Shown: one piece after another, positions 1-11,648 of the stretch | How the letters are laid out: the number at the start of each line of letters is the position of its first letter | Numbering within the stretch: the stretch's first letter is position 1 | Assembly: GCA_902363535.1 (NCBI GenBank) | Contig: CABJAE010000023.1 | Span: 1 to 11,648, forward strand | Direction: 5' to 3' | Origin: Peptoniphilaceae bacterium | Lineage (GTDB): Bacteria > Bacillota > Clostridia > Tissierellales > Peptoniphilaceae | Length of the DNA stretch: 11,648 nt | Position numbers and translations under genes: made by a program | The notes under the pieces: generated by a model | Told to the model about the DNA's origin: nothing | Database searches by the model: none | Seen by the model: only the letters and a program-made list of their open reading frames with translations

Positions 1-4
1 GCAT
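1..4 (-). CDS. First codon of an unidentified gene cut by the window edge
   Basis: The complement of positions 2-4 is an ATG. It is preceded, 5 nt upstream, by a strong Shine-Dalgarno sequence (AAAGGAGG, core at 10-14). Only the start codon and one more base lie inside the window, so the product cannot be named. The gene reads in the same direction as the nine-gene operon to its right but lies beyond that operon's terminator, so it is probably transcribed from its own promoter at about 25-55. Confidence 0.6.
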
Positions 5-9
5 GGCGG

Positions 10-55
10 CCTCCTTTTTTCTCTATTTTACTATAATTGAGTGGCTTAAAGCGGT
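10..55 (-). promoter_or_regulatory. Putative promoter and ribosome binding site for the edge gene
   Basis: Read on the minus strand, an AT-rich block gives possible -10 elements TATAGT (30-35) and TAAAAT (25-30), followed by a purine-rich leader and GGAGG at 10-14. No good -35 hexamer is seen at 17 nt, only TTAAAA- or TTTAAG-like matches. The position between an upstream terminator and a strong RBS supports a promoter here, but the exact hexamers are uncertain. Confidence 0.45.
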
Positions 56-65
56 TTTAAGACAC

Positions 66-100
66 AAAAAGGGAGGGTGAATCGGTTGATTCACCCTCCC
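66..100 (-). terminator. Rho-independent terminator of the nine-gene surface polymer operon
   Basis: Positions 71-83 and 88-100 form a perfect 13-bp GC-rich inverted repeat with a 4-nt loop (84-87). On the minus strand the stem is followed by five U residues (complement of 66-70). It lies 41 nt beyond the stop of the last gene in the operon. The plus strand has only a short U tract (101-103), so the main direction is minus. Confidence 0.9.
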
Positions 101-115
101 TTTGTCATCACTCTG

Positions 116-137
116 GGACCTCTTTATGCAGAGGTCC
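116..137. other. Second hairpin between the lipoprotein stop and the terminator
   Basis: GGACCTCT (116-123) pairs with AGAGGTCC (130-137) around a 6-nt loop. On the minus strand it begins 4 nt after the lipoprotein stop codon and has no U tract, so it is not a normal terminator in the operon direction. On the plus strand it is followed by TCTTTTATT and could stop convergent transcription. It may instead protect the mRNA 3' end or act in tandem with the main terminator. Confidence 0.6.
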
Positions 138-141
138 TCTT

Positions 142-501
142 TTATTGCCCGGCTTTTTGCAGGGCGTCGGCGACGGCGGCTCGTAAACCCGCCGATGTTT
201 CCGTGGCACCGGCAATGCCGTCGACCATGGCGGTGTTTTTCCGCGCCATGGCTCCGGGAAGTTTTTCCAAGGCACTTTCCGCCTGGGGCACCTGCTCCGT
301 CGACTCGCCATGGCTTATGACGGCGATGTCTGACATGCGCCCGCCCTCGATGACGACGCGAAGGACGATGGGTTCCTTTTCGTTGTAGCCCTTTCCCCGC
401 CCTTCGTAGGTGCCGTCTTTGTAGGCGTTTTTTTCGGTGCAGCCGCACAAACTCATCGCGAGGGCCAAGAGCAAAACCGCAATTTTTCTTCGGGCCGTCA
501 T
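142..501 (-). CDS. Small lipoprotein with FMN-binding domain (ApbE-type flavinylation motif)
   Basis: A 119-residue exported protein. It has a basic N-terminus (MTARRK), a hydrophobic stretch (residues 7-18) and a lipobox LCGC, so Cys21 is the probable lipidated residue anchoring it to the outer face of the membrane. Residues 28-117 look like an FMN_bind domain of the NqrC/RnfG type. The segment DGIAGATETS (94-103) fits the Dxx(s/t)gAT motif in which ApbE attaches FMN by a phosphoester bond to threonine, here Thr100; the usual Ser/Thr at position 97 is Ala. Such proteins pass electrons across or along the membrane, but the partner is not visible and no apbE is in the window. The start codon overlaps the transketolase stop (TAATG) and has no convincing Shine-Dalgarno, so translation probably depends on coupling. 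It is the last gene of the operon. Confidence 0.85.
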   Translation of the reverse strand: MTARRKIAVLLLALAMSLCGCTEKNAYKDGTYEGRGKGYNEKEPIVLRVVIEGGRMSDIAVISHGESTEQVPQAESALEKLPGAMARKNTAMVDGIAGATETSAGLRAAVADALQKAGQ

Positions 502-2492
502 TACTTGCGGCTCTTTAAATAAGCCTTCGCTTCTTCCGTCACGGTCTCTGTGGTTAAGCCGAAGCGTTTAAATACTTCCGAGGCCTTGCCCGAGGCGCCG
601 AAGGAATGCATGCCGATGGCCAAACCGTCGAGACCGATGTATTTGTACCAGCCCATGGTCGTTGCCGCTTCCACGGAAATTCGGTTGCGCATTGCCGAGG
701 GAAGCACGGCTTCTTTGTATTCCTCAGGTTGTTCGTCGAAAAGTTCTTGAGAAGGCATGCTGACTACTCGCACGCCGTGGCCTTCTTTTTCAAGGGCTTC
801 GGCGCTTTCCAGAGCCAAGTGCACTTCGCTGCCCGTGGCGATAAAGATGAGATCCAGCGCATTGGCTTCTTTTTTCACCACGTAACCGCCTTTCAGTGCG
901 TCCTTGGAAGAGCCTTCAAGCTCCGGCAGGGTTTGACGGGTGTAGATCATGCTCACGGGTTTGGATTCGCTGTGCATGGCCACGTACCAGGCGGCGGCCA
1001 CTTCCGTGGAATCCGCCGGACGGAAGGTGATCATATTGGGAATGGAACGAAGCATGGCCAGATGCTCGATGGGTTGATGGGTGGGGCCGTCTTCGCCGAC
1101 GCCGATGCTGTCGTGGGTGAAGATATAGGCCGTTGGAATGCCCATGAGGGCGGCGAGACGCAGTTGGGGCTTCAGATAGTCGCTGAAGACCAGGAAGGTG
1201 GCGCCGTAGGATCGGAAGCCGCCGTGGAGATAGATGCCGTTCACGATGGCACCCATGGCGTGTTCTCTGACGCCGAAATTAATGTTTCCGCCCGGACGAT
1301 TGTCCACGCTGTATTGGCCCTCGCCCTTCATGTCGCTCTTGTTGGAGGGGCCCAAGTCGGCGCTTCCGCCGAAGAGATTGCCCATGCCGGCGGCGACCCG
1401 TTGCAGGACTTCGTGGGAGCTTGCCCGCGTCGCCATGTCTTTTTCAACGGGCGCCCAGTAAGCATCTTCGTCCATAAAGGAGAGATCCTGTTTCTTCGTG
1501 TCGTAGCTTGCCAGGAAGGCGTCGTATTTTTGCGGGAAGGCTTCTTTGTATTTTTCTTCCAATTCCTTCCAGGCGTCGTAGACCTTGCGCTTTTCTTCCA
1601 GCTTTTCGTCGACTAAGGCCTTCACTTCGTCTGCCACGGCAAAGGGTGCCACGTCGTAACCTAATTTTTCGCGGGTGGCTTGATTTTTTTCTTCGCCGAG
1701 GGGAGAGCCGTGAACGCCGGCGGAGCCTTCCAGGGGCGAACCGTAGCCAATGGCGGTTTTAATTTCGATCAATGTGGGTTTGATCTTTTCCTGTTTTGCC
1801 GATTCCACGGCCCGGGTAATGGCCTCGATGTCCGTGCCGTCTTCCACGGTGAGCACTTGCCAGCCTAAGGCGCGGTAGCGGGCGGCGATGTCTTCTTTAA
1901 AGGACAGTTCCGTGTTTCCCTCGATGGTAATGTTGTTGGAGTCGTAGAGAACGATCAGCTTGCCCAGCTCCAGGGTCCCGGCGATGGAGGAGGCTTCGTT
2001 GCTCACGCCTTCCATTAAGTCGCCGTCGCCGCAGAGGACGTAAGTATAGTGGTCGATAAAGTCGTAACCCGGCTCATTGTAGATGGCGGCGAGGCGAGTT
2101 TCCGCCATGGCAAAGCCCACGGCGGTAGAGATCCCGGCGCCTAAGGGGCCGGTGGTGGTTTCCACGCCGGCAGTGTGGCCGTATTCCGGATGGCCCGGAG
2201 TCTTCGAATCCAGTTGACGGAAATTCTTTAAATCATCCGCGTCCAGACCCAAACCGAAAAGGTGGAACAAAGAATACAAGAGGGCGCTGCCGTGGCCGGC
2301 GCTTAAAATAAAGCGGTCGCGATTGGGCCACAGGTGATCCTCGGGATCGAAATTCAACGTATTGGCCCACAAGGCCCAAGCCATAGGCGCCGCGCCTAAG
2401 GGCAGGCCCGGGTGACCGGAATTGGCTGCATCGATTTGGTCGATGGAAAGTGCCCGCAAGGTATTGACCGCGAACTGTTCGTTATGATTCAT
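501..2492 (-). CDS. tkt: Transketolase
   Basis: Full-length transketolase of 663 residues, the usual size. It is a cytosolic thiamine diphosphate enzyme that moves two-carbon units between ketose and aldose phosphates in the non-oxidative pentose phosphate pathway. Visible motifs are GHPGLPLG (26-33), HGS (67-69), TGPLG (114-118), the ThDP/metal motif from GDGD (155-158) to NN (186-187), GVHGSPLG (259-266), GGSADLGPSNKS in the pyrimidine domain (375-386), and GVREHAMG (407-414) with the catalytic glutamate Glu410. The transketolase C-terminal domain follows residue ~520. A strong RBS (AGAGGAGG, about 2497-2504) lies 4 nt before the ATG, inside the end of the upstream wecG/tagA gene, which it overlaps by 11 nt. 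A central carbon enzyme inside a surface polysaccharide operon is unusual; it may simply ride along or tie sugar supply to polymer synthesis (inference). Confidence 0.97.
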   Translation of the reverse strand: MNHNEQFAVNTLRALSIDQIDAANSGHPGLPLGAAPMAWALWANTLNFDPEDHLWPNRDRFILSAGHGSALLYSLFHLFGLGLDADDLKNFRQLDSKTPGHPEYGHTAGVETTTGPLGAGISTAVGFAMAETRLAAIYNEPGYDFIDHYTYVLCGDGDLMEGVSNEASSIAGTLELGKLIVLYDSNNITIEGNTELSFKEDIAARYRALGWQVLTVEDGTDIEAITRAVESAKQEKIKPTLIEIKTAIGYGSPLEGSAGVHGSPLGEEKNQATREKLGYDVAPFAVADEVKALVDEKLEEKRKVYDAWKELEEKYKEAFPQKYDAFLASYDTKKQDLSFMDEDAYWAPVEKDMATRASSHEVLQRVAAGMGNLFGGSADLGPSNKSDMKGEGQYSVDNRPGGNINFGVREHAMGAIVNGIYLHGGFRSYGATFLVFSDYLKPQLRLAALMGIPTAYIFTHDSIGVGEDGPTHQPIEHLAMLRSIPNMITFRPADSTEVAAAWYVAMHSESKPVSMIYTRQTLPELEGSSKDALKGGYVVKKEANALDLIFIATGSEVHLALESAEALEKEGHGVRVVSMPSQELFDEQPEEYKEAVLPSAMRNRISVEAATTMGWYKYIGLDGLAIGMHSFGASGKASEVFKRFGLTTETVTEEAKAYLKSRK

Positions 2493-3297
2493 GAGATCCT
2501 CCTCTGTTTTCTTTTACGACGGTGACCGCCTTTTTGTTTCTTGCTATGGTCCATAAGAATTTCGGAATGGCCATTTGCCGCCCGATGCGGGAAGGATTTT
2601 TTAACAGGCGATAAAACCATTCCAGGTGGAGCCGAATGAAAATATCCGGCGCCCTCTTGGCTTTTCCCGCAAGCACATCCAAGACGCCGCCGTTTCCGAT
2701 GGCCACGACGATGTTTTCGAGCTTGTCTCGATTGTTCAAAATAAACTGTTCCTGTTTAGGAAAGCCCAGTCCCACGAAGAGAATCGACGCGCCGCTTTCG
2801 TTGATTGCGCGGATCACTGCCGCCTCTTCTTCGGAATTTTCGTAGCCGCGGTGCGCACCTTTAAAATACCCGTGGTGCTCTGCCGCGACAATGGGCCCGT
2901 ACTTCTCTTCTACCCGTTTTTTCGCTTCCGCCGCCACATTGGGCTCGCCGCCTAAAAAGAAAATCCGCTCGTTTTTCTCTTTGGCCAGCTCCAAAAGGTA
3001 AATGGACAAATCGTAGCCGGTGACGCGCTCCTCCAAAGGATGGCCCCCCATTTTCGAGCCGATGATAAGACCGATGCCGTCGGGCACCACGAGATCCGCC
3101 TCATTCATTACCGCCGCTTTTTCGGCGTCGTCTCTTAAGGCCATGACGATTTCCGTGTTGGGCGTAAAGATCCAGTGAAAGCCGCCTTCGTCCAGAAAAC
3201 CGGATAAGATCTCGCGACTCTCTTTTTCGCTCACGGGATCCACCACGGTGTTAAAGATTTTGATCTTGTCCTTAGGATTGTAAAAGGTCGAAGACAT
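2482..3297 (-). CDS. WecG/TagA/CpsF-family glycosyltransferase (GT26)
   Basis: A 271-residue protein with the whole GT26 fold. These enzymes transfer a sugar, typically N-acetylmannosamine or an aminouronic sugar, from UDP-sugar to an undecaprenyl-linked GlcNAc, the second committed step of wall teichoic acid or related polymers at the inner membrane face. Signatures: TPNTEIVMALRDD (45-57), VPDGIGLI (71-78) with the likely catalytic Asp73, FFLGGEPNVA (113-122), ILFVGLGFPKQEQF (172-185), GNGGVLDVLAGKAKRAP (201-217), and the basic C-terminal membrane-binding tail with HLEWFYRLLKNPSRIGRQ (224-241). The start ATG has AGGAGG 10 nt upstream (3308-3313) and overlaps the end of csaB by 26 nt. The exact sugar and lipid acceptor cannot be read from sequence, so no gene symbol is given. 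Confidence 0.93.
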   Translation of the reverse strand: MSSTFYNPKDKIKIFNTVVDPVSEKESREILSGFLDEGGFHWIFTPNTEIVMALRDDAEKAAVMNEADLVVPDGIGLIIGSKMGGHPLEERVTGYDLSIYLLELAKEKNERIFFLGGEPNVAAEAKKRVEEKYGPIVAAEHHGYFKGAHRGYENSEEEAAVIRAINESGASILFVGLGFPKQEQFILNNRDKLENIVVAIGNGGVLDVLAGKAKRAPDIFIRLHLEWFYRLLKNPSRIGRQMAIPKFLWTIARNKKAVTVVKENRGGSHES

Positions 3298-4372
3298 GCT
3301 TCACATTCCTCCTGCTTTTTTCCAAGAGCACCCGGTGCTGGGCTTCCAGGCGCACCCGCTCCTCGTTCCGCTTGCGGTACATGGCCACCACGGCATTTAG
3401 GAGCTTTTTCTCATCCATGCCCTCGGCCTGAATGTCGGCGTCGATGGAGAGAGATTCCAGTTGAGCCTTTACCTTGGGATCGTAGACGATGCCCACCGCC
3501 GGCGTTTTCGACGTGACGGCATAGATCAAGGCGTGGAGGCGCATGCCGATTAACAGATCGCACAGGCCGATGATCCCTTCCATTTCTTCCACGCCGTAAT
3601 TGCCGCTTAGGACGTGGCAGTGGTTCTTGTGCACCATTTTCGCCTTAATCCCCTCGGCGAAATGTTTGTCTTCCGGATAGTGCAGAGGCGTAAATAGTAT
3701 TTCGAGGCCCAATTCTTCGTGGGCGCGGTCGGCGACGTAGGCGATTTTCGACGCCAGTGCCGGGGCCTTTTTCCACTGACGCACGGCGATAGCCAGAAAT
3801 TGCTTGTCCGGGTCGATGCGCTCTTCCCTGAGGATCGCTCTCGCCGCTTCCCTGCTGATGCCTTCGATGCCGTAGACGGGATCGGCGGTGACTTCCACCG
3901 GCGGCACCTTCACGCCGATCTCTTCAAGGACCTTGGCGCTGTCCGCGTCTCTCAGGGTAATGTAATCCACCTTGTTTAAAATGCGCGCCGTCAATCTTCG
4001 GTTCAGGGATTTGTGAATGGGCCCGACGCCGTTGGCGTAGACGTAGATCTTTTTGCCCATGCGCTTGGCCAGGGCCATGACGCCCAGGTAGTAATACAAA
4101 CTCCTGGAAGAAGTCTCGTCCTGGAGGAGGGACCCGCCCCCGCTGATCAAGAGATCCGTCCCCATCAGGGCCTTCTTCACGGATTTGTAGTGAAAGCGCT
4201 GGGTTGCGTTCACGCCGTAGAGCCGGCGGGTTCTCGGCGGATCGTAGGAGAGAACATTTAGTTGTACGGTTGGATCACAGGCTCTGATGTCCGCTACGAT
4301 GGCGTGTAAAATCGCGTCGTCGCCGCTGTTATCGAAGCCGTAATAGCCGCTAAATAAAACTTTCTTTCCCAT
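3272..4372 (-). CDS. csaB: Polysaccharide pyruvyl transferase CsaB
   Basis: A 366-residue protein of the polysaccharide pyruvyl transferase family, best matched to CsaB. CsaB uses phosphoenolpyruvate to place a pyruvyl ketal on a secondary cell wall polysaccharide, the modification that SLH-domain proteins recognise. Evidence: the N-terminal FSGYYGFDNSGDDAIL (7-22), LLISGGGSLLQDETSSRSLY (74-93), KKIYVYANGVGPI (107-119), the TLRDADSAKVLEEIGV segment (139-154), and GMRLHALIYA (276-285) with the conserved His280. No signal peptide is present; it acts in the cytoplasm on the lipid-linked precursor. The ATG follows AAAGGA by about 9 nt and overlaps the upstream polymerase gene by 23 nt. No SLH-domain protein is encoded in this window, so the anchored partner must be elsewhere if the inference holds. 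Confidence 0.93.
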   Translation of the reverse strand: MGKKVLFSGYYGFDNSGDDAILHAIVADIRACDPTVQLNVLSYDPPRTRRLYGVNATQRFHYKSVKKALMGTDLLISGGGSLLQDETSSRSLYYYLGVMALAKRMGKKIYVYANGVGPIHKSLNRRLTARILNKVDYITLRDADSAKVLEEIGVKVPPVEVTADPVYGIEGISREAARAILREERIDPDKQFLAIAVRQWKKAPALASKIAYVADRAHEELGLEILFTPLHYPEDKHFAEGIKAKMVHKNHCHVLSGNYGVEEMEGIIGLCDLLIGMRLHALIYAVTSKTPAVGIVYDPKVKAQLESLSIDADIQAEGMDEKKLLNAVVAMYRKRNEERVRLEAQHRVLLEKSRRNVKHVFDLLQS

Positions 4373-5720
4373 AACATTCCATCCTTTTCTCCCCTTGTTC
4401 CGCGGAGAGATGTCTTTTACAAATACGTACCAGAGCGAAGGAAATGGCCAACAGGAGCCAGAAGGTGGTGGTGATCTTGGTCATGTAGAAGATGTTTTCA
4501 AACATGCCGTGAAAAAGCATACCGGCAAAGGAGGCGCAAAGGGCCGCTCCCATGATTTTCACGTATCTGTCTTCGCTCTTTAAGGGGTAGCGGGCCAAAT
4601 TAACGAAAATGCTCACCATAAAGATAATGAACAGGATAAATCCGATCAGACCCATTTCCGCAAAGACCTGCAAAAAAGTATTGTGGGCGTGGTAAATGGG
4701 CATGGTGCGAATGTATTGCTCGAAGACCATTTTAAAGGGCAAGTGGCCCAGGCCCAGGCCGACGATGAAGTGATCGCGGATCACCGCCTCGGTAATCTCC
4801 CAAATTTTGAAGCGATAGGAGGTGGACGAGTCGGCAAAATTAAAAATCGTCATAAAGCGATTGACGATGCTTTCCGGTACCACAAACACTGCCGCCCCCA
4901 TAAGAGGGATGGCCAAGAGCAAGAGCTCTTTTCGCACGAGGCATATGAAGACAAAGGCCGCCACGGCGAGGCCCAGCCAGCCGCCGCGAGACATGGTCAT
5001 AAATAAAGACAAGACCTGCACGGCGAAGAGGAGCAAGAAGAAGATCCGCACGCCGTCCCGCTTCGTGGACCAAAACAGGCCCACGCAAAGGGGGATGGTC
5101 ATGACCAGGTACTCGGCGAAAATATTCGGATTGCCGAAGACCGAGTAGGCCCGGGCGCGAATGGCGCCGTTGGAGCTGGTGTCCACCCACTCCTTCTTAA
5201 TGTCCACGCCGACGACGTATTGGTAAATGCCCACCAGGGCCAGTAGCGTCGCCGCGCAAACCACGGCGACGATGACGCCGTGGAGCTGTTCTGTGGTCTT
5301 TACTTCGTTAATCAAAAAGATCAAGTACAGAAAGCCCGCCGTGTGAATGGCCAAATCCCGCAAAGAACCCATCAGGTAGACGGAAGTGGCCGTCTGAATC
5401 ACCATCAGGAGAAAGTACATGTAGGGCACCACTTCGTGACCGGCCACGATGAGGGGATCGTCTTTTTTAAAGAATTTTCTGAACAGATACAGGCCAAAGG
5501 TGCCGTATAGGAGCATGAGAACCAAGAGATCCGGCAAAAACACGTAGCCGAAGGTGGTAGCGATGAGACAGACCATGGGGTTTTCAAAAAAGACCATGAG
5601 CCCGATCAGGCCCGCAAAGAGCAAGACCACGAAGGGAATCTTAATGCTCAGGCCCACGCCGCCGATGACAAAGCCCAGAGCGAGCAAGAGGAGGGGATTG
5701 ATTTTTACGCGCGTTTCCAC
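4350..5720 (-). CDS. O-antigen ligase/polymerase-like membrane protein (Wzy_C family)
   Basis: A polytopic membrane protein of about 456 residues with roughly 10-12 hydrophobic helices. I chose the GTG at 5718-5720: it has AAGGAGG 7 nt upstream, whereas the more distal in-frame GTG (5756) has no RBS. Family hallmarks are RAYSVFGNPNIFAEYL (190-205) before a helix, MSRGGWLGLAVA (243-254), SYRFKIWE (301-308), and HAHNTFLQVFAEMGLIGF (344-361), the extracytoplasmic loop and helix start typical of O-antigen ligase/polymerase proteins (RfaL/Wzy_C). In a monoderm with csaB and a WecG/TagA enzyme alongside, it probably polymerises repeat units or transfers the finished glycan to its acceptor on the outer side of the membrane (inference). 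It overlaps the upstream gene by 16 nt and csaB by 23 nt. Confidence 0.88.
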   Translation of the reverse strand: METRVKINPLLLLALGFVIGGVGLSIKIPFVVLLFAGLIGLMVFFENPMVCLIATTFGYVFLPDLLVLMLLYGTFGLYLFRKFFKKDDPLIVAGHEVVPYMYFLLMVIQTATSVYLMGSLRDLAIHTAGFLYLIFLINEVKTTEQLHGVIVAVVCAATLLALVGIYQYVVGVDIKKEWVDTSSNGAIRARAYSVFGNPNIFAEYLVMTIPLCVGLFWSTKRDGVRIFFLLLFAVQVLSLFMTMSRGGWLGLAVAAFVFICLVRKELLLLAIPLMGAAVFVVPESIVNRFMTIFNFADSSTSYRFKIWEITEAVIRDHFIVGLGLGHLPFKMVFEQYIRTMPIYHAHNTFLQVFAEMGLIGFILFIIFMVSIFVNLARYPLKSEDRYVKIMGAALCASFAGMLFHGMFENIFYMTKITTTFWLLLAISFALVRICKRHLSAEQGEKRMECYGKESFI

Positions 5721-6265
5721 GACGCCACCTCCTTGTCGTGTAAAAGCAGACGCCACAGATGCCGAAATCCCTTCAAAGCATAGGAGCTTTTGGCGATTTC
5801 ATCGATGCCCTCTGCGATTCTGTACATAAAAAGGCCTGCGAGAAGAAAGAAAAGTCCCGAAATGCCCCAAAGGCTGCGGTGCAGTAAGGAGAGAATCAAC
5901 ACGCTTAAGCCGAAGCCCATGCTGATCATGCCCGTGGTTTTAAGGGCCGAATCCCAGGCGCGGTAGCTGTCCGCGATGTCAAAGCCCACGGAGGCGGACA
6001 CGGCGCCCGTCAGGCGAATGCGCACCCAGTGGGCGATGGTATTGAACAGGCGGTAAAAAAACCGAAGGATGCGAAAAAACAAGGTGCCGGCGAAGGCGGC
6101 TTCGGCCCCGTCCAGCATGTTTCGCGTCGCGGATGCCCGCCACTGTCTTTTTATCGCGCCGCCCACGGCCGCAAAAAAACCGTGAAGGAAACTGTGTTTA
6201 TACCAATTCTCCAATGCCCGCACGGCGGTAAGTAATCCTTGAATCAGTACACTGGATTGAATCAT
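5705..6265 (-). CDS. Unknown membrane protein with two clear C-terminal helices
   Basis: A 186-residue protein I do not recognise. The N-terminal half is basic and amphipathic with many aromatics (for example NWYKHSFLHGFFAAVGG, 20-36, and FFRILRFFYRLF, 63-74). Two convincing membrane segments follow at about 110-128 and 132-149, then a short charged C-terminal tail. No signal peptide or catalytic motif is visible. The ATG lies 2 nt beyond the DUF4330 stop codon, with only a weak GGGAAG as RBS, so it is probably translated by reinitiation. Sitting between DUF4330 and the Wzy-like protein, it may be an accessory subunit of the polymer assembly machinery (inference from position only). Confidence 0.8.
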   Translation of the reverse strand: MIQSSVLIQGLLTAVRALENWYKHSFLHGFFAAVGGAIKRQWRASATRNMLDGAEAAFAGTLFFRILRFFYRLFNTIAHWVRIRLTGAVSASVGFDIADSYRAWDSALKTTGMISMGFGLSVLILSLLHRSLWGISGLFFLLAGLFMYRIAEGIDEIAKSSYALKGFRHLWRLLLHDKEVASWKRA

Positions 6266-6267
6266 AA

Positions 6268-6750
6268 TTACTTCCCGTCTTTAGTAATGCCTACGCAAAT
6301 GCCCGTAAATGCGGAGGTCTTGGTCTTGACGCGGTACTCGTTGCCCACGCGAATTTCTTCGCCGCCGACGACGTAAGACTTGTCCGATTCCTTAATATCT
6401 ACATTCACGTCCAGGTAGACGGAATATTTTTCCGGCACCGGCGCGTTCACCCACTGCCCTTCATATTCCACGGCATCTTCATAGGGACGCACAGTTTTTC
6501 CGGTGATTTTACCCATGAAAATACCTTTGTCGTAGCTGTAAAGATCCTGACCTTCGGTGATGTTTTCTACCGTGGGCGTGCGCACATTGTCCACGAGGAA
6601 GGTCATTTTTCCCTTGGACGTGCTTTCCACGGCAATGGACGAATCTTTAAAGCGAGAGACGCCGCCGACGATGGCGACGATGAGTATGAGCAAGAACAGG
6701 CAGTCGATGACATTGATCTTGCCGAAGAGTTTTCCTTTTTTATCGATCAT
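6268..6750 (-). CDS. DUF4330 family membrane-anchored protein
   Basis: A 160-residue protein whose start, MIDKKGKLFGKINVIDCLFL, is typical of the DUF4330 family. One membrane helix (about 14-31) is followed by an extracytoplasmic beta-rich domain of about 125 residues, with no cysteines or obvious catalytic motif. The family's function is unknown; in Clostridia it is commonly found next to glycosyltransferases and O-antigen-ligase-like genes, as here (general knowledge). The RBS AAAGGAG lies 5 nt before the ATG, and the gene overlaps the end of the GT4 gene by 11 nt. A role as a membrane scaffold or accessory to polymer export is inference. Confidence 0.85.
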   Translation of the reverse strand: MIDKKGKLFGKINVIDCLFLLILIVAIVGGVSRFKDSSIAVESTSKGKMTFLVDNVRTPTVENITEGQDLYSYDKGIFMGKITGKTVRPYEDAVEYEGQWVNAPVPEKYSVYLDVNVDIKESDKSYVVGGEEIRVGNEYRVKTKTSAFTGICVGITKDGK

Positions 6751-7867
6751 GTTGGCTCCTTTGAAGAATTTTTTTATAGATTTCCGAATGGCTTTCGGCC
6801 ATGGCTTCCTGACTGAAATGTTCGTTTACGTATTGATACAGGCCCTCGCCCCGCGCTTTCATTTCGTCGGGGTGATTTAAGGCATAGAGCATGTTTCGGG
6901 AAAGGCCCTCGGTATCTTTCGGCTGAAAGAGCATGCCATAGTCCCCGGCCATTTCTCCGATGCCGCCCACATCCGTGGCGATAAAGGGAATCTTGGCCTT
7001 GGCTCCTTCCAAAAGGGCGTAGGGGAAAGATTCCGATACGGAGGTGAGCATGTTCACATCACCGGCTTCATAGAGGCTGAAAGGATCGGATACTTGACCT
7101 AAGAAAGAGACCGCATCCTCCAGGCCTTCTTCTTTCACATAGGCCATGAGCTTTTCCCGCTCCGGCCCCCTGCCGGCGATTAATACGTGAGCGCCTTTAA
7201 AAGCCTCTTTATTCAGAGCCACAGCTCGCAAAAGGGTCATGTGATCTTTCACTAAGTCCAAACGGGCGGCGATGACAAAGAGCATGCGGTCTGAATATTT
7301 TTTCAAGCCGTAGCGATCCAAAAAGCGGTCTTTATCCACGGCGATCTCCGGCTTTTTCATGTCGATGCCGTTGTAGGTGACGAAGATGGCTTCTTCCGGA
7401 AAGCCCCGACTCACCAACATTGTCTTGAAGCGCTCCGTAATGGCGATGTAGTTGTCGAATCGCTTTAAGGCGTATTTGTTCAAGGGCGTAAAGACCTTGT
7501 CCTTAATAAAATTGTCTTTAAAATCCAGCAAATAGTCGCTGTGCAAAGTGGTGACCATGGGCACGTCCACGCGTTTTCTGAGATACAGGGCGTTAAAATT
7601 AGCCCGCGCGCCGTGACAGTGGATTAAATCGAATCCTTCCTCCTCGATCATGCGGGCCACTTCTTTCAGTGCCCCCATGTCGAAGCGGTTTTTCTGTTCC
7701 ACGAGACGAGCATCAATGCCCAAATCCAAGGCGCCGTCGAGAAAAGGCCCGGGGCAGAAACAGACCATGCTCACCTGATGATGGGCTTCGAGGCCTTTCA
7801 GCAAAGTGTAAATATGCGTCTTCGCCCCGCCGGTGTCGCCGCCGCTGATAAGATGAAGAACTTTCAT
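6740..7867 (-). CDS. GT4-family glycosyltransferase
   Basis: A 375-residue retaining glycosyltransferase of GT-B fold. I start it at the ATG at 7865-7867 (MKVLHLISGG), because GGAG at 7874-7877 is 6 nt upstream; the ATG at 7873 has the GGAG directly against it. The N-terminal acceptor domain holds SGGDTGGAKTH (8-18) and HCHGARAN (83-90). The C-terminal donor domain holds VIAARLDLVKDH (198-209), LIAGRGPE (229-236), VSFLGQVSDPFSLYEAGDV (253-271) and the EX7E motif from Glu279 to Glu287 (ESFPYALLE), followed by FIATDVGGIGEM. It has no membrane helix and works on a lipid-linked acceptor at the inner membrane face using a nucleotide sugar. Donor and acceptor cannot be told from sequence. It follows the exported-protein gene by 11 nt and overlaps the DUF4330 gene by 11 nt. 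Confidence 0.93.
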   Translation of the reverse strand: MKVLHLISGGDTGGAKTHIYTLLKGLEAHHQVSMVCFCPGPFLDGALDLGIDARLVEQKNRFDMGALKEVARMIEEEGFDLIHCHGARANFNALYLRKRVDVPMVTTLHSDYLLDFKDNFIKDKVFTPLNKYALKRFDNYIAITERFKTMLVSRGFPEEAIFVTYNGIDMKKPEIAVDKDRFLDRYGLKKYSDRMLFVIAARLDLVKDHMTLLRAVALNKEAFKGAHVLIAGRGPEREKLMAYVKEEGLEDAVSFLGQVSDPFSLYEAGDVNMLTSVSESFPYALLEGAKAKIPFIATDVGGIGEMAGDYGMLFQPKDTEGLSRNMLYALNHPDEMKARGEGLYQYVNEHFSQEAMAESHSEIYKKILQRSQHDR

Positions 7868-7878
7868 CGTCATCTCCG

Positions 7879-8331
7879 CTACATGCCTCTTACGACGCGG
7901 TAGCTGCCCCGCATGAGGACGATGGCATTGGTGGAGGCTTTAAGGCCCCGACCGTCGCTTCTCGGCGCAATGAGCATGTGATTCAGAGGCGCGCGTTCCC
8001 CTTGTTTTAAGTCGACGCCTGCGGTGATATCGCTGAGGCCGCCGAGTTCTTGGGCGATGGTTTCCACCCGCCCGCTTCTCGTGATCATTTCCGCGCCTTG
8101 GGCCGCGATGATTTTATCGCCGGCCTTTAATTCCACCACTTCCAAGGTCTGCGCACCGGAAGGGGCCGCCGATTTTTGATTTTGATTGTTCTGTATGGCT
8201 TCAAGCCTTTGGTTTAAATAACTTAATGAAACCAAGGGATCGTCGTCTTTGGCAAAAGCGGGAACCGCCGCGCCCATTAATAAAAGTCCCAGGGCACAGG
8301 CCGCGCTTATTTTTTTCCAATTGCGTTTCAC
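7879..8331 (-). CDS. Exported protein of unknown function, first gene of the operon
   Basis: A 150-residue protein starting at GTG (8329-8331), with AAGGA 7 nt upstream. A clear signal peptide has a basic start (MKRNWKK), a hydrophobic core (8-22) and an AFA cleavage site after residue 27. The mature protein begins KDDDPLVSLSYLNQRLEA (28-45), then a Gln/Asn-rich linker (48-60) and a compact domain (62-149). That domain carries VVELKAGDKIIA (65-76), RSGR (85-88), GLSDITAGVDLKQGE (98-112), LNHMLIAPRSDGRGLKA (116-132) and VLMRGSYRVV (138-147). I recall this D-P-L-V plus PRSDGRG pattern in uncharacterised secreted proteins of Clostridia, but no function is known to me. It leads the operon and is probably a wall or surface accessory protein. 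Confidence 0.87.
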   Translation of the reverse strand: MKRNWKKISAACALGLLLMGAAVPAFAKDDDPLVSLSYLNQRLEAIQNNQNQKSAAPSGAQTLEVVELKAGDKIIAAQGAEMITRSGRVETIAQELGGLSDITAGVDLKQGERAPLNHMLIAPRSDGRGLKASTNAIVLMRGSYRVVRGM

Positions 8332-8367
8332 AATCTCATCCTTTCTGTGTTATATTTCATCCTATCT

Positions 8368-8396
8368 ATTATACAACAATCCGCCGACGAGACCAA
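8368..8396 (-). promoter_or_regulatory. Sigma-A-type promoter of the nine-gene operon
   Basis: On the minus strand, -35 TTGGTC (8391-8396) and a perfect -10 TATAAT (8368-8373) are separated by exactly 17 nt. Transcription should begin near 8361, giving a 5' leader of about 30 nt. The -35 directly follows the terminator of the mazF unit, which marks 8331 as the first gene of a new transcription unit. No operator-like repeat is seen. Confidence 0.85.
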
Positions 8397-8400
8397 CGAA

Positions 8401-8430
8401 AACGACAAAAGCGCGGGGCTTGCCCGCGCT
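8401..8430 (-). terminator. Terminator of the acpS-nnrD / mazF unit
   Basis: Positions 8410-8417 and 8423-8430 form an 8-bp GC-rich stem (AGCGCGGG with CCCGCGCT) around a 5-nt loop. On the minus strand the stem is followed by UUUUGUCGUUUU. It lies 10 nt beyond the mazF stop and just before the next promoter. Confidence 0.85.
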
Positions 8431-8440
8431 CGTCTATGTA

Positions 8441-8782
8441 TTACAGACCGATGCTGATTTTTAACGCTTCGTCCACGTCGTCCATAATTTTCGTGCTGAA
8501 CTTGCCGATCTTTTCCCTGAGGCGCTTTTTGTCAATGGTTCGCACCTGTTCCAAAAGAATCACGGAATTTTTCGGCAAATCATTGTTCGCCGCCTTCACC
8601 TTCACGTGGGTAGGCAATTTCGTCTTGTTCATTTGCGATGTGATCGCCGCCACGATCGTCGTAGGCGAGTACTTGTTGCCCACGTCATTTTGAATAATGA
8701 CCACGGGCCTTACGCCGCCCTGCTCCGAACCGATGACCGGGCTCAGATCGGCATAAAACACATCGCCTCTCTTAATAACCAT
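8441..8782 (-). CDS. ndoA: MazF/EndoA-type mRNA endoribonuclease toxin without a neighbouring antitoxin
   Basis: A 113-residue protein of the PemK/MazF fold, highly similar along its length to Bacillus subtilis EndoA (recalled alignment), which cuts mRNA at UACAU. Motifs: [20 protein letters not shown] (2-21), [12 protein letters not shown] (22-33) with the catalytic Arg25, AAITSQ (45-50) with Thr48, LPTHV (56-60) and [10 protein letters not shown] (76-85). All catalytic residues are kept, so the protein is probably active. In B. subtilis the gene follows alr and the antitoxin ndoAI; here it follows the acpS-nnrD fusion by 3 nt, leaving no room for an antitoxin. The RBS is GAAAGG, about 9 nt before the ATG. 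The gene is the last of its operon. Confidence 0.95.
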
Positions 8783-8785
8783 AGA

Positions 8786-9955
8786 TCACAACCTTTCTAT
8801 TTCTGACAGATCCCTCGCGGCCTCGAGGCGGAGAAAGGCTTCGGGCAAATACTCAATTAAATCCGAAGCGATCAACCCCCACTTGCTTTTATGTAAGGCG
8901 GCGAAGTCTCCTGCCAGTCCATGCATATATACCCCGAGGCGCGCCGCTTGAAAACAATCCAGCCCCTGGGCTAAAAACGCCGTTATAATACCGGTTAAGA
9001 CGTCGCCGGAGCCCGCCGTGGCCATGCCGGCATTTCCCGTTTCGTTAACGACGCGGTCGTCTTTCGAGGCAACGATTGTGCCATGGCCCTTTAAGACCAC
9101 GACGCCACCGTAGAGGGCCAGGCATTCGTCCACGGCATCATCCCGGTGGGCATTTACCCAGTCCGCATCCCGACCGATGAGGCGGGCCATTTCCCCGGCG
9201 TGGGGCGTGTAAATTTTCGGTCCCGCACTTTCGGGCTTCGCCTCCGCCAAATGATACAAGCCGTCGGCGTCCACCACCATGGGAAGGTCGAGGGCATATA
9301 TTTTTAAAAATACGTCCCGCGCCCGCCTGTCGCGGCCCATGCCGGGCCCGATTCCCACAGCGTCCACGTCCCTTACCTCATCTAAAGCGCTCTGTTTTTT
9401 TACAATCACTTCCCGCATGCGCAGGGAAAAGTCATTAAACACAGCGTCGGGAACGTAGGCGTAGCTCAGACCGCAACCGGCCCTTAAGGCCGCCGAGGAA
9501 GAAAGATCCACGGAGCCGAACATGCCCGCGCTTCCGCCGACGATGGCCGCTTTTCCCCGGGCGCCTTTGTGGTCTTTTTCATCCACGAGCGGGAGCAGAT
9601 TCGCCGCCTCGTTCGATACGGAAAGCACGCTGCTTTCTCGCAGGCGGGCCACGGCGACGGCGTAGTCTCTTTCGTGGGAGAGGGACAGATCGAAGGTGTC
9701 ATTTTTGTAGCGGCCGCAAAGGGCACCGCGCGCATCTTGTGTCACGATTAAATTTTTAAATCCCGCTTTAAACAGGCCCACGCCCAGAGCCTTGGCCATG
9801 GCCTCTTTTGCGGCAAAGCGGCCGGCCACGGTTTCCGGGCGCAAGTTTAGATTCGCCCGTTCCTCAGGGGAAAACACTCTTTCGAGGAAATCCTCCCCTC
9901 GCCTGTTCATTATTTCTTTTACTCGCGGTATGTAAACCAAATCCACGCCAATCAT
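8786..9955 (-). CDS. Fusion of holo-ACP synthase (AcpS) and ADP-dependent NAD(P)H-hydrate dehydratase (NnrD)
   Basis: A 389-residue protein with two enzyme domains in one frame. Residues 1-106 are AcpS, which transfers 4'-phosphopantetheine from CoA to acyl carrier protein: MIGVDLVYIPR with Asp5, the GRFAAKEAMAKALG motif (45-58) with Glu51 for magnesium, and SLSHERDYAVA (91-101). Residues ~115-375 are NnrD, the ADP-dependent dehydratase that repairs hydrated NAD(P)H: HKGARGKAAIVGGSAG (129-144), GIGPGMG (201-207), VVDADGL (227-233), TPHAGEMARLIG (250-261), VLKGHGTIV (287-295) and NAGMATAGSGDVLTGI (308-323) with the likely catalytic Asp318. The NnrE epimerase domain, usually fused ahead of NnrD, is absent. 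A start RBS GAGGTG lies 4 nt before the ATG. The linker is only ~10-15 residues. There is no internal start with an obvious RBS suggesting two separate proteins. Confidence 0.93.
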   Translation of the reverse strand: MIGVDLVYIPRVKEIMNRRGEDFLERVFSPEERANLNLRPETVAGRFAAKEAMAKALGVGLFKAGFKNLIVTQDARGALCGRYKNDTFDLSLSHERDYAVAVARLRESSVLSVSNEAANLLPLVDEKDHKGARGKAAIVGGSAGMFGSVDLSSSAALRAGCGLSYAYVPDAVFNDFSLRMREVIVKKQSALDEVRDVDAVGIGPGMGRDRRARDVFLKIYALDLPMVVDADGLYHLAEAKPESAGPKIYTPHAGEMARLIGRDADWVNAHRDDAVDECLALYGGVVVLKGHGTIVASKDDRVVNETGNAGMATAGSGDVLTGIITAFLAQGLDCFQAARLGVYMHGLAGDFAALHKSKWGLIASDLIEYLPEAFLRLEAARDLSEIERL

Positions 9956-9971
9956 ATGTCACCTCTTTTTC

Positions 9972-9980
9972 ATCATAACA
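9972..9980 (-). promoter_or_regulatory. Possible extended -10 promoter of the acpS-nnrD unit
   Basis: On the minus strand TGTTATGAT (9972-9980) matches an extended -10 (TGn plus TATGAT, 5 of 6 to consensus). No good -35 is seen 16-18 nt upstream, and the start of transcription would fall very close to the GAGGTG ribosome binding site (9960-9965), giving an extremely short leader. This is the best candidate in the divergent gap but it is weak. Confidence 0.35.
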
Positions 9981-10009
9981 CAATTTCAGCAGAAAAAAAC
10001 GATTTTTAC

Positions 10010-10038
10010 TTGACAAAGTTTTCATACGACCCTATAAT
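10010..10038 (+). promoter_or_regulatory. Consensus sigma-A promoter of tyrS
   Basis: TTGACA (10010-10015) and TATAAT (10033-10038), both perfect consensus, are separated by 17 nt. Transcription should begin at about 10044-10046, so the tyrS leader is only about 146 nt long. Such a strong promoter is typical of genes controlled by attenuation downstream. Confidence 0.95.
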
Positions 10039-10045
10039 GGAGAAC

Positions 10046-10103
10046 AAATTCATAGATACGATGATGGCGTCCCCAAAATTACAACGCCGGAGTATGATAA
10101 TTT
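10046..10103 (+). promoter_or_regulatory. Compact Stem I with K-turn and UAC-bearing apical loop
   Basis: From the base: AAATT (10046-10050) pairs with AATTT (10099-10103), AT (10052-10053) with AT (10097-10098), and ATAC (10056-10059) with GTAT (10092-10095). Next come a 3-nt bulge GAT (10060-10062) and tandem sheared pairs G10063-A10091 and A10064-G10090, which is the K-turn pattern. A U-G pair (10065, 10089) and GGCGT/ACGCC (10066-10070, 10084-10088) carry a 13-nt loop (10071-10083). UAC at 10080-10082 sits on the 3' side of the loop, followed by A. The distal arm of a normal Stem I and the AGUA of the specifier loop are missing. The fold is by eye, not computed. Confidence 0.7.
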
Positions 10104-10147
10104 TTTCGAGGCTTTTTGCGAAGAAAGGTGGTACCGCGTTGGAAGAC

Positions 10148-10170
10148 GCCCTTTCGCAGGAGCTTTTTTT
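10148..10170 (+). terminator. T-box regulated terminator upstream of tyrS
   Basis: GCCCT (10148-10152) pairs with AGG-A-GC (10158-10163, one bulged A) around a 5-nt loop, followed by seven U residues (10164-10170). Its 5' arm overlaps the 3' arm of the antiterminator, as in transcription-attenuating T-boxes. The stem is short for a terminator, so its strength is uncertain. Confidence 0.65.
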
Positions 10171-10190
10171 GTGCTTAAAAAGGAGGCATC

Positions 10191-11417
10191 ATGACTGAGA
10201 ACGTATTTGATCTACTTGAAAGAAGAGGTTACATTGACCAGGTAACATTCCCCGACGAATTGCGTGAACGCTTGGCCGAAGGACCGATCACATTTTACAT
10301 CGGCTTCGACGCCACCGCCGATTCCCTTACTTTAGGTCACTACCTTCAGGTAAAAGTTCTTCAACATTTCCAACGGGCCGGTCACGTGCCCATTACCCTG
10401 TTCGGCGGCGGAACCACGTTAATCGGCGATCCCTCCGGCCGTAGCGATATGCGCAAAATGCTGACGAAAGAAGACATCGACCACAACATCGACTGCTTCA
10501 AGCGTCAACTGTCCCACTTTATCGACTACTCCGACGGCAAGGCCATTGTGGCCAACAATGCGGACTGGCTTTTGGATCTCGGTTACCTGGATTTCATGCG
10601 CAACATCGGCGTGCATTTTTCCGTAAACCACATGCTGAAGCTGGACGCCTACGCCAACCGCTTGGAACAAGGGCTGACTTTCTTTGAAATGGGTTACATG
10701 CTCATGCAGTCCTACGACTTCTTAATTCTTTACAGGAAATACAATTGCCAATTGCAATTAGGCGGCTCCGACCAATGGAGCAACATGCTCGGCGGCTACG
10801 ACTTGGTTCGCAAGCTGGACGACGGCAAGGTCTACTCCATGACCTTCAAACTCCTCTCCACCGCCGACGGCCAAAAGATGGGCAAGTCCATGAAGGGCGC
10901 CATTTTCTTGGATCCCAACAAGACGCCGCCCCACGAAATGTTCCAATACCTGCGTAACTGCGACGACCGCGACGTCGTGAAGTTCCTGAAGCTCTTAACC
11001 GACGTCAGCGACGAAGAAATCGCCGAATACGCAAAATTGGAAGGCCAAGAACTGAATGTGGCCAAGGAACGCTTGGCTTGGGAAATCACCAATGAAGTTC
11101 ACGGCAAGGAAGAAGCCGACAAGGCCCTGGAAGCATCCCGCGTCCTCTTCGGCGGCAGTGGCGACACGGAACACATGCCCACCACGGAACTTTCCGAAGA
11201 CGAGGTGAAAGACGGCATTACTATCGTTGAACTTATGCAAAAAGGCGATCTCATCGCCTCCACCAGCGAAGGACGCCGGCTGATTAAACAAGGCGGCGTG
11301 TCCGTAGACGACGAAAAAGTCGAATCCCACGATGCGATCATCACGTTGGATGCGCTAAAAAAAGGCGTCCACGTCCGAAAAGGCAAGAAAGTTCACCACT
11401 TATTCAAACTTAAATAA
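10191..11417 (+). CDS. tyrS: Tyrosyl-tRNA synthetase
   Basis: A 408-residue class I aminoacyl-tRNA synthetase that charges tRNA-Tyr; the length is normal for the family. The catalytic domain has FYIGFDATADSLTLGHYL (35-52), whose TLGH replaces the HIGH signature, GGGTTLIGDPSGRSDMR (72-88), MQSYDF (172-177), QLGGSDQWSNM (189-199) and the KMSKS-loop version KMGKS (229-233). A C-terminal S4 RNA-binding domain covers about 340-408 (GRRLIKQGGVSVDDEKV). The ATG has GGAGG 4 nt upstream (10182-10186). It is a single-gene unit with its own promoter, T-box leader and terminator, divergent from the acpS-nnrD unit. Codon use differs somewhat from the minus-strand genes in favouring C-ending codons, as expected for a highly expressed gene. 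Confidence 0.98.
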   Translation: MTENVFDLLERRGYIDQVTFPDELRERLAEGPITFYIGFDATADSLTLGHYLQVKVLQHFQRAGHVPITLFGGGTTLIGDPSGRSDMRKMLTKEDIDHNIDCFKRQLSHFIDYSDGKAIVANNADWLLDLGYLDFMRNIGVHFSVNHMLKLDAYANRLEQGLTFFEMGYMLMQSYDFLILYRKYNCQLQLGGSDQWSNMLGGYDLVRKLDDGKVYSMTFKLLSTADGQKMGKSMKGAIFLDPNKTPPHEMFQYLRNCDDRDVVKFLKLLTDVSDEEIAEYAKLEGQELNVAKERLAWEITNEVHGKEEADKALEASRVLFGGSGDTEHMPTTELSEDEVKDGITIVELMQKGDLIASTSEGRRLIKQGGVSVDDEKVESHDAIITLDALKKGVHVRKGKKVHHLFKLK

Positions 11418-11430
11418 GTTACGTGCATAG

Positions 11431-11473
11431 AAAAAGCGACCTCCGCGGCATTCCGCGAAAGGTCGCTTTTTTT
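11431..11473 (+). terminator. tyrS terminator, probably bidirectional
   Basis: AAAAAGCGACC (11431-11441) pairs with GGTCGCTTTTT (11461-11471), and after a small internal loop CGCGG (11444-11448) pairs with CCGCG (11453-11457) around CATT. Seven U residues (11467-11473) follow. The A run at 11431-11435 gives a U tract on the minus strand as well, so it may also stop transcription from the neighbouring insertion sequence. Confidence 0.92.
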
Positions 11474-11493
11474 AGGTTCTATGTCAACCATTG

Positions 11494-11523
11494 GGGAGTC
11501 TAGTGAAAACTAGGCTCCTTTTT
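11494..11523 (+). terminator. Hairpin terminator inside the insertion sequence end, facing inward
   Basis: GGAG (11495-11498) pairs with CTCC (11515-11518), and CTAGT (11500-11504) with ACTAG (11509-11513), around a GAAA tetraloop, followed by UUUUU (11519-11523). It works on the plus strand, against transcription entering the element from tyrS. On the minus strand it has no U tract, so it does not serve the transposase gene. Confidence 0.8.
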
Positions 11524-11543
11524 GTTTTCCTAAAAGCCATTCA

Positions 11544-11648
11544 TCACCGGTCTTTTGAACAGACGAAAAGCAGTTTGGTTCGGAAATGATGAAAGTTACG
11601 CATCCCAAAAGCGACGCGCTTCACGGTCTTGATCTTGTTGTGCGTTCC
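11544..11648 (-). CDS. ISL3-family transposase, C-terminal 34 residues only
   Basis: The minus strand from the right edge reads an open frame ending at TGA (11544-11546). The 34 residues start GTHNKIKTVKRVAFG and continue MRNFHHFRTKLLF, the conserved end of ISL3-family DDE transposases (typically N-N-K-I-K-x-x-K-R-x-A-x-G-x-R-N-F). The last acidic residue of the catalytic triad lies just upstream in this family and is outside the window, so integrity of the enzyme cannot be judged. Confidence 0.85.
   Translation of the reverse strand, partial: GTHNKIKTVKRVAFGMRNFHHFRTKLLFVCSKDR

Follow-up and report, generated by a model that had tools for sequence, protein, structure and literature searches.

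The window, by which we mean the whole stretch analysed (11,648 nucleotides), covers positions 1-11,648 of the forward strand of contig CABJAE010000023.1, assembly GCA_902363535.1, from a Peptoniphilaceae bacterium. Its tyrosyl-tRNA synthetase (TyrRS) shares 99% identity with the Aedoeadaptatus coli enzyme, which makes the host an Aedoeadaptatus-type bacterium; the genomes of relatives stood in for its own genome in the comparisons. Near the end of the window tyrS is preceded by a sigma-70 type promoter and by a leader that reads as a very short T-box (Table 1). The rest carries, on the reverse strand, genes of the cell-surface polysaccharide type at 2482-7873 (WecG/TagA transferase, pyruvyl transferase, Wzy ligase, glycosyltransferase) and a PemK/MazF-like toxin gene at 8441-8782, which adjoins a single open reading frame (8786-9955) fusing AcpS, the 4'-phosphopantetheinyl transferase, to NAD(P)H-hydrate dehydratase (Pfam ACPS 2-103, Carb_kinase 137-371). 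A weak Rfam match to tsr31 at 11408-11472 (34.1 bits, cut-off 50) resembles the terminator of tyrS.

Table 1. Features of the tyrS leader region, in positions of the window
Feature	Position	Strand	Basis or remark
Sigma-70 type promoter, TTGACA-17-TATAAT	10010..10038	+	12/12 match; -35 and -10 conserved, spacer not
Promoter boxes	TTGACA 10010-10015; spacer 17 nt; TATAAT 10033-10038	+	
Leader 5' end (predicted start) before Stem I	10045..10055	+	spacing from -10; CAAA invariant in 9 loci
Whole ultra-short Stem I, 40 nt	10056..10095	+	alignment and covariation
Stem I base helix	AUAC 10056-59 / GUAU 10092-95	+	
K-turn, 5' side	10060..10065 (3-nt bulge GAU 10060-62, GA 10063-64, U)	+	sequence; Rfam alignment to T-box consensus
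K-turn, opposite side	G10089, G10090, A10091	+	
Stem I upper helix	GGCGU 10066-70 / ACGCC 10084-88	+	
13-nt apical loop, CCCCAAAAUUACA	10071..10083	+	11/13 invariant in 9 loci; 13/13 identical in G072
Specifier UAC (Tyr), then A10083	10080..10082	+	invariant in 10/10 rows
Short linker at Stem II position	10096..10107	+	little conserved, 3/12 invariant
Stem III position and terminator 5' arm, GAGGCUUUUUGCGAAG	10108..10123	+	14/16 invariant; pairs with 3' arm in fold
Antiterminator	10124..10154	+	27/31 invariant; Rfam alignment
Antiterminator A1	AAAGG 10124-128 / CCUUU 10150-154	+	
T-box bulge UGGUACC	10129-10135	+	UGGN bulge; complementary to tRNA 3' end
Antiterminator A2	GCGU 10136-139 / ACGC 10146-149	+	
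Terminator 3' arm and U-run	10155..10170	+	fold; relatives
Shine-Dalgarno AAGGAGG	10180..10186	+	sequence; downstream of U-run
tyrS, tyrosyl-tRNA synthetase	10191..11417	+	Pfam tRNA-synt_1b 245 bits, and SYY_C-terminal

A first-pass annotation of this DNA had placed a perfect promoter before the leader, and it holds: all 12 consensus positions are matched, and among the window and eight relatives six of the six -35 positions and five of the six -10 positions are invariant, against none of the 17 spacer positions. This pattern lends good support to a leader start at about 10045. The unconserved spacer and the divergent orientation of the upstream acpS also argue against a longer transcript with a hidden distal arm. 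From its start to the end of the U-run the leader would thus measure about 126 nt in the window, and 125-128 nt across the nine loci.

Conservation of the ultra-short Stem I

Stem I consists of a 4-bp base helix, a K-turn, a 5-bp helix and a 13-nt apical loop with UAC-A at its end. When 80 TyrRS-matched loci were examined, a T-box core lay upstream only in L001-L008 and L011; L011 was rejected as a leader of the same type, because its leader differs in spite of the core. The ultra-short Stem I is conserved in all eight loci whose TyrRS is at least 87% identical, and these share with the window the leader together with its promoter. A more distant genome, G072, keeps the apical loop at 13 of 13 positions with four helix pairs changed on both sides (two in the base helix, two in the upper helix), one outer pair of the base helix failing. 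The K-turn is kept in the 10 aligned rows. The base helix, K-turn and short helix, and the UAC then A in the apical loop, had all been read from the window beforehand, and conservation of the K-turn and of UAC in homologous leaders had been set as a test: both are kept. The same structure in many independent genomes rules out an assembly error.

Covariation within the nine Aedoeadaptatus-type leaders alone is not significant (154 of 500 shuffles were as good). Once G072 is added 98.6% of the cells pair, over 8 distinct rows and with four double-changed pairs; on these measures only 0-4 of 500 shuffles, and none of the slid registers, did as well. The covariation that the first-pass annotation proposed to look for in related tyrS leaders is found with G072, not among the nine. 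The folding energy of the leader is not unusual (z -0.40, with 66 of 200 shuffles as good) and is no proof of structure. The other search then proposed, with the T-box covariance model, aligned the leader to the T-box consensus, but Rfam RF00230 gave it only 27.6 bits, below the cut-off of 93. We built a covariance model, R1, from the nine leaders without G072 and ran it over the 130 family genomes, of which 104 gave some match at E<=1: the eight training genomes scored 129-142 bits, and the next best match was G072, upstream of tyrS, with 73.7 bits (E 1.4e-13). Comparison of sequences confirms the leader as a real, conserved and strongly reduced T-box.

Linker, antiterminator and enclosing terminator

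Only 28 nt (10096-10123), Stem III position included, separate Stem I from A1, so that Stem II cannot fit; nor does a Stem I of 40 nt leave room for the IDTM, in agreement with the distal arm having been declared absent. An IDTM-like signature was found in 1 of 113 family tyrS leaders. Of the 35 canonical T-box matches from four family genomes 30 were scanned in the same way, and 27 of these carry it; the pattern is our own and was written after the canonical T-boxes had been viewed. By eye, many relatives with longer linkers have a small hairpin, maybe a Stem IIA/B, and the Aedoeadaptatus leaders have none; a Stem III helix would be tiny in the window, where the RRRxG motif 5' of Stem III is only loosely recognizable. 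The window RNA, as predicted, is without both published tRNA-grip modules, the elbow-binding IDTM and the Stem II S-turn. The T-box bulge and antiterminator of the first-pass annotation are borne out, their ends being corrected from 10123-10155 to 10124-10154. The missing Stem II and the enclosing terminator described below, which set this leader apart more than the length of its Stem I, had both been overlooked.

In a standard T-box the 3' strands of A1 and A2 become the 5' strand of the terminator, as a review of the field describes (PMC7583486). This is not so in the window fold: the segment 3' of the antiterminator pairs with GAGGC...GCGAAG upstream of the bulge, so that the terminator encloses the antiterminator, and in the lowest-energy fold GCGAAG:UUUCGC takes the place of A1. 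For the nearest relative, G001, the pairing is worth -13.1 kcal/mol with the upstream segment versus -6.6 with the antiterminator strand. Among 106 family tyrS leaders with the core pattern 97 could be analysed (G072, having no T-run of five, was left out), and, counting as enclosing a preference of more than 2 kcal/mol, 91 are enclosing, one is standard (G065, whose long T-box passes the Rfam cut-off) and five are unclear (G046, G047, G062, G063 and an Aedoeadaptatus, G003). The canonical T-boxes of the four family genomes, 26 of 30 being analysable, gave 18 standard, 2 enclosing and 6 unclear. In 24 representatives the terminator's own arms pair with a mean of -9.6 kcal/mol versus -6.0 for mismatched arms of other groups, although in 8 of the 24 at least 7 of the 23 foreign arms equal the own arm in pairing.

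The terminator fold of the leader reaches -30.4 kcal/mol, compared with -19.2 when the antiterminator is forced and the 3' arm left unpaired, so that OFF would be the default state without tRNA. The hairpin is followed by a T7 run, and the Shine-Dalgarno sequence begins 10 nt past the U-run; this order points to termination and supports the transcription attenuator, in a Bacillota-like genome, that the first-pass annotation predicted, the host being one of the Peptoniphilaceae. One observation goes against our preferred explanation: in several relatives the terminator and the antiterminator are able to coexist in one extended hairpin, and the lowest-energy folds of G003, G068, G101 and G130 keep the antiterminator and its 7-nt bulge intact atop the terminator. 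How the tRNA would exclude termination is therefore not obvious from secondary structure. Besides, in L098, L099, L100 and L102 the terminator 3' arm (of the AAACCGTGG type) seems paired with the 5' side of A2, which would be a third arrangement.

Short tyrosine T-boxes across the family and beyond

TyrRS was located in all 130 family genomes, and the stretch upstream of tyrS was read in each. The T-box core matched there in 114 of them, or 113 without G094, whose match looks like coding sequence; the stretches of the other 16 had no T-box core, but that of G075 may miss it, the gene match starting at residue 56. A fixed grammar, in which a base helix is followed by a 3-nt bulge, GA, a helix, a loop with UAC-purine at its end and GA, parses 54 of the 114 leaders versus 8 of 1140 shuffled segments; the grammar, like the order-wide pattern used below and the IDTM signature, was written after some of the counted sequences had been viewed. 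The motif UUACA or AUACA occurs in 108 of the 114, the shuffled mean being 29.9.

The loop, with any arm that it carries, measures 7, 13, 15, 16, 22-29, 32, 39, 42, 43 or 62 nt. Most loops of 22-29 nt hold, by eye, an AGUA...GAA element and an arm of 3-5 bp. By the grammar six genomes have the 7-nt loop and nine the 13-nt loop; G079-G081 and G104 can also be read by eye as the 7-nt form, though their base helix or K-turn is weaker. These 7-nt forms stand on unrelated helices in G100-G105 and in G079-G082 (pairs were counted on seven rows, and apart for G079-G081, none of which forms the third pair out from the K-turn). The joint MAFFT alignment of the 13-nt and 7-nt forms misaligns the specifiers and was set aside, and the family-wide alignment, which misplaces many intermediate leaders, was viewed only. 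A TyrRS tree with 71 rows gathers the 13-nt form in a single clade (100/98), the sister of which is G071 (100/99), still with AGUA and a 4-bp arm, and splits the 7-nt form into two separate clades. The distal arm has thus been lost independently at least twice and probably three times, and the window leader, far from isolated, marks one extreme in a gradual series of short tyrosine T-boxes that spans the Peptoniphilaceae.

Several leaders of the family depart from this description. Among those that the grammar does not parse are G009-G039 and G045-G050. The former (L141-L171) apparently have no canonical K-turn and show by eye a wide internal loop between the base and specifier helices; whether any T-box works without a K-turn is put as an open question in the review (PMC7583486). 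The latter (L177-L182) share a conserved hairpin with a 9-nt loop, RAGAAAKAY, on five different 5-bp helices, ending in UAC in three genomes, UAU in one and GAC, not a Tyr codon, in two. In G068 (L200) the loop of the Stem I hairpin, UGUAA, complements the adjacent specifier segment UUACA and looks like the anticodon, which may be chance. G061 has a second short tyrosine T-box (L291, about 1455-1610) before a transporter-like gene, presumably a sodium-dependent (NSS-like) one. The Rfam T-box model, applied to 20 tyrS leader loci of the various forms, listed 17, with one over the cut-off (G065, 128.3 bits), two longer-armed leaders at 86.4 and 63.1 bits and fourteen at 23.6-47.9 bits; the other three had no match.

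Outside the Peptoniphilaceae R1 found no convincing member in the samples taken. Of 391 genomes of the class 11 matched at E<=1e-3, eight being family members and three weak; of 398 genomes of the phylum three matched, two family members and one partial match. Among these outside matches L325 and L326 appear to be ends of T-boxes that have another, longer leader, and L327 and L329 have no match to the core pattern. The order-wide pattern occurs in 44 of 249 genomes, at 46 places, compared with one place for the reversed control. Seven of these places belong to genomes from outside the family, and five of the seven precede tyrS; the matches G226 C152 and G235 look like chance. The five tyrS leaders from the same order (L330-L334) have longer Stem I arms, with the IDTM signature in three. 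By eye, their linker measures about 50 nt and holds a single small hairpin without a separate Stem II, and their terminator is of the standard kind, placed downstream. They recall class II by having no separate Stem II, yet they are tyrosine leaders and class II is described as glycine-specific (PMC10482949). The layout of these five leaders suggests an order of loss in which Stem II went first and the distal arm next, with a change of terminator.

Proposed mechanism, alternatives and place among T-box classes

Genes for tRNA-Tyr were found in seven of the nine genomes tried (G001, G003, G072, G079, G082, G101 and G117; the exact pattern missed G004 and G071), with anticodon GTA and discriminator A73. 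The GUA anticodon matches UAC and A73-CCA matches UGGU, which, with UAC-A standing before tyrS, upholds, at the level of sequence, the predicted tyrosine specificity. We read the leader, at a probability of roughly 0.78, as a T-box riboswitch that attenuates transcription in response to tRNA-Tyr and has been pared down to a codon hairpin and a discriminator; tRNA-Tyr-dependent antitermination, with the tRNA gripped only at its anticodon and acceptor end, is the most likely function. The anticodon of uncharged tRNA-Tyr would pair with UAC in the apical loop of Stem I, and the flanking U and A could lengthen the contact to five pairs (U-A37, A-U33). As U precedes UAC in 50 of the 54 parsed leaders, such a contact, UUACA:UGUAA, is possible, and it might compensate for the lost grips. 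The K-turn would bend the RNA back, so that A73-CCA pairs with UGGU of the T-box bulge. Stem III and its purines belong to the aminoacylation sensor according to the review (PMC7583486), and the bound discriminator would need this segment, which is also the 5' arm of the terminator. Docked on a bound uncharged tRNA, Stem III would keep the enclosing terminator open and tyrS would be transcribed; a charged tRNA could not seat its end, the terminator would close and transcription would stop at the U-run.

Other explanations deserve consideration. The leader might be a decayed T-box that no longer binds tRNA and persists as a fixed attenuator or a remnant, as the absence of both published grips, the Rfam score of 27.6, the 16 family genomes without a core before tyrS (G075 being perhaps a missed one) and the coding-like match of G094 could indicate; but a loop, K-turn, bulge and helices conserved with compensatory changes, the retention of UUACA/AUACA in 108 of 114 leaders and the repeated origin of apical-loop forms speak against this, and we consider decay improbable. 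Alternatively the RNA alone would be insufficient and the missing grip supplied by a protein, either one of the host that binds K-turns (L7Ae family, YbxF-like) or some other. We regard this as rather unlikely: the K-turn is kept in 10 of 10 rows and the review suggests that such proteins may help T-boxes (PMC7583486), but the tyrS leaders of G009-G039 appear by eye to do without a canonical K-turn.

The folds that keep the antiterminator and its 7-nt bulge atop the terminator in G003, G068, G101 and G130 also allow a reversed logic, in which the tRNA, once bound, would hold the top of the enclosing hairpin closed and favour termination. Such a switch would shut tyrS off when tRNA-Tyr is uncharged, contrary to the described T-boxes and to need, and the leaders outside the family keep, by eye, the standard arrangement; this makes it a very improbable reading. 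As for a translational T-box like the ultra-short actinobacterial ones, the resemblance of Stem I to class III speaks for it and, in the sequence, a hairpin followed by T7 with the Shine-Dalgarno sequence 10 nt past the U-run speaks against it (the folds covered the RNA upstream of the Shine-Dalgarno); we find it barely credible. We retain tRNA-Tyr-dependent antitermination as the preferred reading.

In the current view a T-box binds its tRNA with added help from the IDTM, from the Stem II S-turn or from both, and at least four classes are listed (PMC10482949). Transcriptional T-boxes generally need the IDTM; according to the review they generally require a long Stem I, and a truncated Stem I shows hardly any tRNA binding unless Stem II is present (PMC7583486). 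Class III (Nocardia farcinica ileS) resembles the window leader by its short Stem I without IDTM, its apical-loop specifier and its K-turn, but it is described with a 5-6 nt loop and a required Stem II and as mostly translational (PMC10482949), whereas the window has a 13-nt loop, no Stem II and a terminator. Class IV (Actinomyces odontolyticus ileS) recalls the Stem I of the intermediate relatives, with their AGUA loop and 3-5 bp arm; it is described as otherwise like class III, mostly translational and requiring the Stem II that the window does not have, and its side-bulge specifier between two Stem I helices has no counterpart in the window, whose 13-nt loop is unpaired in the fold, the second helix being present in relatives such as G071. 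Class II (Bacillus subtilis glyQS) is transcriptional, as is predicted for the window leader, and likewise without Stem II, but glycine-specific with a long Stem I and IDTM, while the window leader has UAC before tyrS and no IDTM. Class I (Bacillus subtilis tyrS) shares the gene, the amino acid and the transcriptional control predicted here, but has the IDTM, a Stem II with S-turn and a terminator made from the antiterminator 3' strands, none of which is seen in the window. TBDB noted a truncated Stem I in some of its hits; the family leaders at 23.6-47.9 Rfam bits or with none (17 of 20 loci) may be absent there. Judged from its sequence, the window RNA fits none of the four published classes and its architecture lies outside them; the distinct minimal class proposed in the first-pass annotation is supported as an architecture.

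Whether it represents a fifth class we hold to be an even question: this would be a transcriptional class with only a codon hairpin, a K-turn and an acceptor-end pocket, without elbow docking or Stem II, in which Stem III is withdrawn from an enclosing terminator instead of a swap of antiterminator strands, and which arose by stepwise and repeated loss of the distal arm in one family. The standard Rfam model misses most of these leaders, with one of 20 scanned loci over the cut-off. At about 125 nt, an aptamer-switch this compact would also be of use in engineering. The enclosing terminator suggests a second way of coupling the seating of tRNA to transcription, and a conserved, promoter-bounded leader with neither grip makes the minimal requirement for tRNA reading testable, natural intermediates of the Peptoniphilaceae included.
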